Below the pieces are notes generated by a model. The model was not told where the DNA came from. It saw only the letters and a list, made by a program, of their open reading frames with translations, and made no database searches. From NCBI RefSeq assembly GCF_009696275.1, contig NZ_VUMI01000022.1, positions 1-64,000 of the forward strand: a DNA stretch of 64,000 bases, given 5' to 3'. This DNA is from Eisenbergiella porci (GTDB lineage: Bacteria > Bacillota > Clostridia > Lachnospirales > Lachnospiraceae). Of this stretch, positions 50,168-51,936 are shown in pieces. The stretch's first letter is position 1. Each line of letters begins with the position of its first letter. Both the position numbers and the translations under genes were made by a program.

Positions 50168-51409
50168 TTATGTATTCCCGGAAGCCGCCAGCTGGGAAAG
50201 GATTTCCCGCACATCGTCACCCATTTTTATAAGGGCGGCCATATCGGGAATTTCTATTCCATGGACGAGGACATTCCGGGCGTTCCGCAACGCAACCACC
50301 CGGTCCAGGTTTTCCTTGGAAAGTACCTTCATCCGTTTCAGGCTGTTCACATTAAAGGTGCCTCTTGCCTTGGGATTGCTTTTCAGGGTCAGCCTGCCGA
50401 GAATGGTTTCCAGGCTAATCCATGGCTTCATGAAGTATTCCATGGCCTGGTACTGCTCTTTGCTCAGCTTTTCTCCGGGGGCGCGAAGCTCCATGTAAAG
50501 ATGATAGCGTTTTTCATTGCCGCAGATGATTTGGTCGGAGAGCTGTTCTGAGATGGTCCGCTTGTCGTTGACAAGCTTTGTGGACTTCAGAATCGGTTCA
50601 AGCTCTTTGGCGTTGGCTATTTTCAGCCGTCCCATCAGACGCAGAAGCAGTTCTACATTTCCCATGCGCGGTTCGATATCCATCCGCTTATACCGGGTGC
50701 TCAGATAATTGTAAAGATAAGCCGCCAGATCATATTGGTTGTTAAAGGATGTATTTTTACTCTGGATTCGCTCGTTTCCTGCAGCCTGCAGCCGTTCCAG
50801 AGCTATCTCGCCGCTGAGGACAAGACCGTTCAGTTCGTCAAGGATGGCGAGCTCTTCATCGGACAGGGTGCCCTGAAGCGGCTTGTAAACCAAATCATGC
50901 TCCACCTCCGACCAGGCATGCATCAGAACGGACGCTACCTGGATTTCCAGGCGGACAGGGGCATATTTTATCCGGGTTTTATCCAGGGAATCTTCCTTCA
51001 TGGAAGCCCGGTAATGGGTGGCCCAGTAGCCGGAAAAACGTTTGTTGTAGGAAGGCTGTTTGGACTGCACTGGGAATTTCTTGGTTTCAGCCACTGTAAA
51101 CAGGTTGTTGATGACCCGATCCGCTTTGGCACGGTCGCCGGGGAAATAGAGGGACACGCGTACGCCGGAAAGGTCGGCGATATCCGCATAGATTTCGCTC
51201 ATGTTTTTATAGGGAGTTTCCCGTTTTTCATTCCGCTGCGTCACCTTGATTTTGAGCCGGCTGGGGCTCTTGGCGCGCGAGGTTACCATGGCGCGGATAC
51301 CGGAGGAGCGCAGGGCATCCTCCAGCATTTCGGCGGCAATGCGTCCTGCTGTTTCGTAAAAGTTTATTTTCTTCTTGTAATTTTCTATAAATTGATTTAT
51401 CAGATCCAT
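50168..51409 (-). CDS. RelA/SpoT-domain nucleotide synthetase with C-terminal HEPN-like motif
   Basis: The N-terminal ~180 residues are a complete RelA/SpoT synthetase domain: SRAKSPSRLK (44-53), DLSGVRV (79-85), GYWATHYR (127-134), EIQV (155-158) and HAWSEVEHD (164-172). No N-terminal hydrolase domain is present. The remaining ~230 residues are mostly helical and unlike RelP/RelQ (about 210-250 total). They contain ALRNARNVLVHG, whose RNVLVH (378-383) fits the RNxxxH catalytic motif of HEPN ribonucleases. Known relatives with extra domains include toxic alarmone synthetases. A frameshifted membrane-protein gene sits 29 bp upstream on the same strand. The HEPN call is inference from motif and position. 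Confidence 0.85.
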   Translation of the reverse strand: MDLINQFIENYKKKINFYETAGRIAAEMLEDALRSSGIRAMVTSRAKSPSRLKIKVTQRNEKRETPYKNMSEIYADIADLSGVRVSLYFPGDRAKADRVINNLFTVAETKKFPVQSKQPSYNKRFSGYWATHYRASMKEDSLDKTRIKYAPVRLEIQVASVLMHAWSEVEHDLVYKPLQGTLSDEELAILDELNGLVLSGEIALERLQAAGNERIQSKNTSFNNQYDLAAYLYNYLSTRYKRMDIEPRMGNVELLLRLMGRLKIANAKELEPILKSTKLVNDKRTISEQLSDQIICGNEKRYHLYMELRAPGEKLSKEQYQAMEYFMKPWISLETILGRLTLKSNPKARGTFNVNSLKRMKVLSKENLDRVVALRNARNVLVHGIEIPDMAALIKMGDDVREILSQLAASGNT

Positions 51410-51438
51410 ATTGATTGCCTCTTAATTGTGTCTCACGG

Positions 51439-51936
51439 TCACAGCCAATCCTCATTGGGCAGGGACTGGCCGCCATCGGCATATATGATCGTATTTGCTT
51501 TATATTCAAAAATCAAATCGTCATAGTCAGTGGAATATAAAAACCTTGTTTCATTCAAATCCTCATAAATATCCAGATAAATGCCTTCCTCCACAGAGGT
51601 CTCATCCGGGCCGACACTGATGTCGGTGAGATCGCAGGGAAGGGTAAGGAATTCTTGACCCCGCCTGCTTTTCCTTTTCTTCCCGGATGCTGCGGAACTG
51701 TTCCAGCACATTCTGAAGGATGGAATCCGGCTTTTTGCTTTCTTCCAGGCGGGAGCTTATAACGGCCGGATTTTCAGTAATCCCCACATTTACGGCGCCG
51801 TGCCTGCCCGGCCCTCCGCCGGACTGCAGCAACAAAATAAGCAGAACTATATTTACAGTCGCCAGGATGCCGATGGCAACAGCGCATATTATTATTTTCC
51901 TTTTGGATTTGGAATCATTTTTTCAGTAATCATCAT
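51439..51936 (-). pseudogene. Membrane-anchored protein gene with two apparent frameshifts
   Basis: From ATG 51936 (GAGGGA upstream) the frame runs out after 14 codons at an A6 tract. One added A would join it to a frame coding KSKRKIIICAVAIGILATVN and a long hydrophobic segment, then an acidic stretch. That frame is lost again near 51660 (a G4 tract), and the natural continuation EFLTLPCDLTDISVGPDE to GGQSLPNEDWL is in a third frame ending at 51439. The joined product would be about 165 residues with one N-terminal membrane anchor. It could be a pseudogene, sequence error at homopolymers, or slippage-expressed. Confidence 0.6.

Follow-up and report, generated by a model that had tools for sequence, protein, structure and literature searches.

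The stretch of DNA analysed here (the window) comprises 64,000 nucleotides of Eisenbergiella porci (assembly GCF_009696275.1, contig NZ_VUMI01000022.1, positions 1 to 64,000), and it carries on its minus strand a gene whose product joins a RelA/SpoT synthetase to a C-terminal HEPN domain (Table 1). The original prediction, made from the letters alone, had described a 413-residue frame with the synthetase motifs and the sequence RNVLVH at residues 378-383; all of these are found in their predicted positions, the latter being encoded by the codons CGG AAT GTC CTC GTC CAT (50261-50278, minus strand). It had further proposed a one-protein module resembling MNT-HEPN systems, possibly tethered or controlled by a membrane protein encoded upstream. 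Part of this proposal stands, namely the combination of an intact synthetase head with a HEPN tail, which is supported by the fold and by the conservation of catalytic residues, while the MNT-HEPN-like relation and the membrane partner are not supported.

Table 1. Positions of the fusion gene, its parts and the adjacent remnant in the window.
Feature	Position	Strand	Basis
RelA/SpoT-HEPN fusion gene, 413 aa	50168..51409	-	open frame and translation
Synthetase domain, residues 1-215	50765..51409	-	Pfam RelA_SpoT core, residues 44-176 = 50882-51280
Helical middle region, residues 216-295	50525..50764	-	AF2 model; common to HEPN-less relatives
HEPN domain, residues 296-413	50171..50524	-	AF2 models; VIA rows
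E334, conserved acidic residue, second HEPN helix	50408..50410	-	77/78 rows
RNVLVH, residues 378-383, predicted RNase active site	50261..50278	-	H 77/77, R 76/77, N 76/77
YXXY motif, Y302-x-x-Y305, a lead only	50495..50506	-	both Tyr in 60/78 intact-HEPN rows
Remnant, with a broken frame, of a putative gene for a membrane protein; not conserved with the fusion gene	51439..51936	-	translation; congener comparison

Relatives of the protein were collected from genome contigs, where the best 80 of 138 were analysed, and from viral contigs (n=13). Conservation was read from an alignment, A2, whose 77 rows are the window protein, 71 of these 80 genome-contig loci and 5 of the 13 viral loci. Near-duplicates or fragments were omitted (L045, L047, L073, L080, L084, L089, L094, L104 and L106), as were the viral L011, with the same protein as L010, and L012 and L014-L019, which have no HEPN. 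A further alignment (A3) omits L082, another (A4) is a 50-row subset, and the synthetase tree holds 98 rows, the 78 with an intact motif including L109 (RRSYIH) and L117 (KNNLLH). Since the A2 sample was selected by similarity to a HEPN-bearing query, it is biased.

The N-terminal part of the protein matches Pfam RelA_SpoT with an E-value of 4.3e-11 and 43.5 bits, against a cut-off of 27, and this family is recognised at E<=0.1 in all 77 members of A2. The residues R45, K47, K55, D79, G82, R84, E155, Q157 and Y128, which correspond to the ATP site, the Mg site and the tyrosine that stacks on the acceptor, are identical in 77/77 full-length members; their roles come from PMC11782079, and their counterparts in the window protein were assigned by spacing. 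The position of FaRel2 S70 is occupied by R51, and the EIQIRT sequence of RelQ/SAS1 and RelP/SAS2 reads EIQVAS. The solved chains of these two enzymes have 209-255 residues, whereas the window protein adds about 200 residues which comprise the HEPN bundle. A fold search in BFVD returned seven matches at E<=0.001 over about 200-250 columns, several of them named RelA/SpoT, and was uninformative on HEPN. From sequence and models the head is predicted to be an intact RelQ-like pyrophosphokinase. Since RelQ/RelP are its nearest relatives in fold, the acceptor would most likely be GTP/GDP, or possibly the 3' end of tRNA.

The tail was modelled with AlphaFold2 (AF2), and two models place its helices at residues 299-309, 317-344, 354-360, 365-382 and 390-409, so that RNVLVH ends the third main helix (365-382) of a HEPN bundle. 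The definition given in PMC3710099, an Rx4-6H motif that ends helix 3 with a polar residue after the arginine, is matched by R378, N379 and H383. The acidic residue of helix 2, typically found as Ex3[KR], has its counterpart in E334, but four residues further on there is a glycine (G338) instead of a basic residue. Foldseek found no match to the tail at E<=0.001, while rows 1-11 of the VIA comparison are all HEPN structures, with a small margin over unrelated bundles; among the VIA matches, 1wwp and 1ylm are named as HEPN in PMC3710099. The profile matches of the single sequence are below the cut-offs, both for Pfam HepT-like (residues 354-384, E 0.045) and for NCBIfam HepT_toxin (E 0.086), and this speaks for the view that the tail is helical but unrelated to HEPN and holds RNxxxH by chance. 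Across the family, however, HepT-like is matched at E<=0.1 in 23/77 members, with a best value of 8.6e-5, and together with the VIA rows, the conservation of RNxxxH and the ranking of positions by entropy given below, this already contradicts a chance match, to which we assign next to no probability. The C-terminal fold, which the original prediction had proposed to check by modelling, therefore comes out as a HEPN bundle, and the conserved RNxxxH and helix-2 glutamate make it a predicted RNase.

The conservation of the putative active site exceeds what chance would give. RNxxxH is present in 77 of the best 80 genome-contig relatives, down to 37% identity, the three exceptions being a 258-residue fragment (L080), L109 and L117. 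Among the full-length members of A2, H383 is kept in 77/77 and R378, N379 and E334 each in 76/77, so that the conservation of R378 and H383 in close homologues, on which the original prediction had made itself depend, is borne out. In the 78 intact rows the least variable positions of the tail are, by entropy, H383, W330, E334, R378, N379 and F326. Within the genus, the ratio of nonsynonymous to synonymous substitution rates (dN/dS) in eight orthologs is 0.03-0.09 for the synthetase and 0.10-0.28 for HEPN, with dS>1 throughout, and both ends of the protein thus appear to be under purifying selection.

A less favourable result came from a fairer sample of the class Clostridia, in which 391 evenly drawn genomes were searched, again with the A2 profile, and hits were taken at E<=1e-20. 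Sixteen genomes gave hits, of which one (G333) is a contig-end fragment left out of the comparison and another (G293) a distant type. The motif is kept in only two of the sixteen, the E. porci genome itself and G375; it is decayed in seven (G140, G191, G206, G214, G277, G297 and G384), as RNxxxF, RNxxxY or with the arginine absent; and in five genomes of the genus g79 (L120-L124, corresponding to G114, G316, G080, G420 and G236) the HEPN is gone, leaving proteins of 318-321 residues that align to the window protein up to residue 295-298. In these twelve decayed or HEPN-less rows the 14 checked residues of the head are all intact (14/14 in 12/12). These observations weaken the original proposal and speak for an alternative in which the protein is essentially a small alarmone synthetase whose HEPN-derived tail has ceased to cut RNA, but binds RNA or nucleotides or holds an oligomer together, like the presumed substrate-binding HEPN-like tails of other nucleotidyltransferases. 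Against this alternative stands the fact that the R, N and H of the motif and the helix-2 glutamate belong, in the 78 intact rows, to the six positions that vary least, although the domain as a whole evolves fast, and we consider it rather unlikely.

The 14 residues are likewise intact in all eight rows that have another tail. One relative (L033:1498-3261, the same gene as L137) carries, as read from its sequence, TPR-like repeats in place of HEPN. Because the head remains intact where HEPN is decayed, gone or replaced, the synthetase is the constant core of the family, to which different C-termini can be attached (HEPN, TPR-like, other or none). Since heads persist without HEPN, they do not in every case require it as an antitoxin, and the head is not solely an antitoxin of HEPN.

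This bears directly on the MNT-HEPN relation, in which a single chain would hold a HEPN toxin that is modified and silenced by the synthetase. Such a relation is suggested by the membership of both heads in the Pol-beta nucleotidyltransferase superfamily (PMC3710099, PMC5512222) and by the HepT-like character of the tail in the VIA rows. However, the synthetase is kept without HEPN, and the type VII HepT/MntA system is defined by an RX4HXY motif with an acceptor tyrosine in HepT and by GSX10DXD in MntA (PMC7641770). The tyrosine modified in HepT, two residues after the histidine, occurs in 2/78 rows and is I385 in the window protein, and the MntA motif is found in 0/98 rows, even when loosened to G[ST], 8-14 residues and DxD within the first 220 residues. 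The fusion therefore differs from HepT/MntA in both motifs and in joining its HEPN to a RelA/SpoT enzyme: control of the HepT/MntA type is unlikely, the antitoxin relation of the original prediction is not upheld, and silencing of a HEPN toxin by the synthetase is in our judgement improbable. Other HEPN effectors are HepS, Csm6 and AbiA; what accompanies HEPN is a CARF domain in Csm6 and a reverse transcriptase in AbiA, rather than a RelA/SpoT enzyme.

The family resembles CapRel and other toxic small alarmone synthetases (FaRel2, Tas1) in its RelA/SpoT head, joined to a tail that may be regulatory as their partners or tails are, in its carriage by prophages and, in most rows, in a YXXY motif. 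Located just before the HEPN bundle, this motif has both tyrosines in 60/78 intact-HEPN rows, and both positions aromatic, counting F, in 67/78; it is also present in 6/7 decayed-HEPN rows and in the TPR-like row. CapRel and ATfaRel2 use a YXXY to close the ATP site (PMC9712102; PMC11782079, section 7), and the resemblance of the window motif to this lock is a lead only. It would nevertheless fit a CapRel-like enzyme, in which the head is a toxic pyrophosphokinase of the tRNA 3'-CCA and the variable C-terminus its sensor and inhibitor, whose YXXY would keep the ATP site shut until a product of the phage is bound. The constant synthetase, the exchangeable C-termini, the prophage carriage and the persistence of YXXY in rows with decayed or replaced HEPN all agree with such an enzyme, which we regard as distinctly unlikely.

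No description of a fusion of RelA/SpoT with HEPN was found in the open-access literature searched, including passages of PMC3710099, PMC10440598, PMC7159879, PMC5512222, PMC8649781 and PMC13414232, though supplements, outside that search, may list it; the words SpoT and ppGpp are absent from the main text of PMC3710099.

Within the genus, one full-length ortholog is present in 13/13 genomes, that of E. porci included, the other twelve at 75-92% identity, and a full-length match is found in 0/24 other sampled genomes of the same family. In the 98-row synthetase tree, which is quick and unrooted and has long branches (the meeting of L129 with L119 was flagged), 38 rows form one starred branch, named Eisenbergiella, Hungatella, Enterocloster, Clostridium, Lachnospiraceae and alike, or unnamed; the remaining rows mix Pseudomonadota, Bacteroidota, Actinomycetota, Acidobacteriota, Latescibacterota and Bacillota. 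As the tree is unrooted, gain and loss of HEPN are indistinguishable in it. From the tree and from synteny we infer that the window copy has been inherited vertically within a branch of Lachnospiraceae. The E. porci genome has five further RelA_SpoT matches, one in a frame of 831 residues and four in frames of 213-241 residues (contigs 24, 82, 119, 126 and 142). In many proteobacterial members (L086, L088, L090, L091, L097-L099, L108 and others) the start, set by alignment to that of the window protein, is apparently a TTG.

Several relatives are carried by prophages. Six of the 13 viral-contig relatives have RNxxxH, two of these with an identical protein, and seven have another C-terminus. 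The latter (L012, L014-L019) lie without exception directly behind an integrase-like gene, in which Pfam Phage_integrase was confirmed in 4/4 of those scanned; this slot is probably at a prophage end and likely to be a cargo slot. Among the HEPN-bearing members, L010 has a tail-fibre assembly gene on one side and the tail sheath on the other, with an intervening 63-residue frame, and L011 is arranged alike; L013 comes after a regulator and a phrog_52 tail gene, L008 is downstream of a phrog_52 tail gene and L007 upstream of a tape-measure gene, two small frames intervening in each of these last two cases. The position of L010 is that of the fun(Z) gene of phage P2. Anti-phage hotspots described in P2-like phages lie at another site, between gpA and gpQ (PMC9122126). 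Annotated phages gave one record only, a partial match, and plasmids 19 records, one of which, in Azospirillum, covers at least 80% of the query. Overall, the placement in prophages supports, without proving, a defence role of the mobile members.

As to the genes around it, no neighbour family among the first 40 clusters is common to more than 4 of the 42 loci in the scattered and viral set, and the gene is thus apparently stand-alone. The families that reach 3-4 loci are phage structural genes or come from near-duplicate Streptomyces loci, and the rest are pairs. In Lachnospiraceae-type loci outside Eisenbergiella any one neighbour is common to at most 9/31, and close matches to the nth and ABC-F genes are confined to Eisenbergiella-type loci. 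A conserved operon partner was on these grounds rejected. With PADLOC at E<=1e-15, 118 neighbours of 34 scattered loci matched 50 models, including ThsB, Dsr1, NsnA/PD-T4-2_A and SoFic, and 103 neighbours of Lachnospiraceae-type loci matched 27, including DEDDh and GlgB; these sets omit 6/124 and 8/111 neighbours, respectively, and the tallies, save for the first member, are not assigned to individual members, so that the contrast between the two settings is suggestive only. Near two relatives there are related genes, L081:3745-4800 and L008:7337-8461, the first of which matches Pfam GmrSD_N and the PADLOC models NsnA and PD-T4-2_A.

The open reading frame upstream is as originally predicted: 29 bp separate the end of its stop codon from the ATG of the fusion gene and it is frame-broken, with a hydrophobic stretch and, in a three-frame translation, pieces in two frames with two changes. 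Neither piece has a Pfam match at E<=0.1. No such remnant lies upstream of the fusion gene in the 12 congeners, two of which have only 217 (L023) and 261 (L028) bases available there. The N-terminal piece was found in its own genome only (1/13 genus genomes) and the C-terminal piece in its own genome and, at 26%, once in G008 on a different contig (2/13), though a strongly decayed copy could escape either search. A membrane partner that tethers or controls the fusion and co-occurs with it was rejected, as neither piece turned up at this locus in the congeners. As far as the evidence goes the remnant is a degraded bystander, and its frame breaks may be an assembly error.

Taken together, these results lead us to prefer, tentatively and with slightly less than even confidence, a single-gene growth-arrest enzyme with two predicted catalytic ends, a pyrophosphokinase and an RNase effector. 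The head would move pyrophosphate from ATP to an acceptor and the HEPN part would cut RNA, and both activities together would slow translation when the cell is stressed or infected by a phage. The mobile members would be prophage cargo, probably directed against rival phages, and the window copy may have become a housekeeping enzyme of the stress response. Rather doubtful is a more elaborate version, an immune enzyme that would hit translation both by pyrophosphorylation, of an alarmone or of the tRNA 3' end, and by HEPN cleavage of RNA, restrained by an internal YXXY lock, spread as prophage cargo with exchangeable tails and domesticated in the chromosomes of gut bacteria of the Eisenbergiella, Hungatella and Enterocloster type.

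Bacteria under stress or in conflict with phages deploy both RelA/SpoT enzymes and HEPN RNases time and again, and their pairing in one protein recurs in several bacterial groups and in prophages. If both ends work, a single gene would combine the cutting of RNA with chemistry on alarmones or tRNA, and the contribution of the tail would be directly visible in the natural series of HEPN tails, from intact through decayed and lost to replaced. Common gut Lachnospiraceae, in which a copy is kept, would then have a RelA/SpoT enzyme that had escaped recognition, in this genome in addition to the one long and four small ones.
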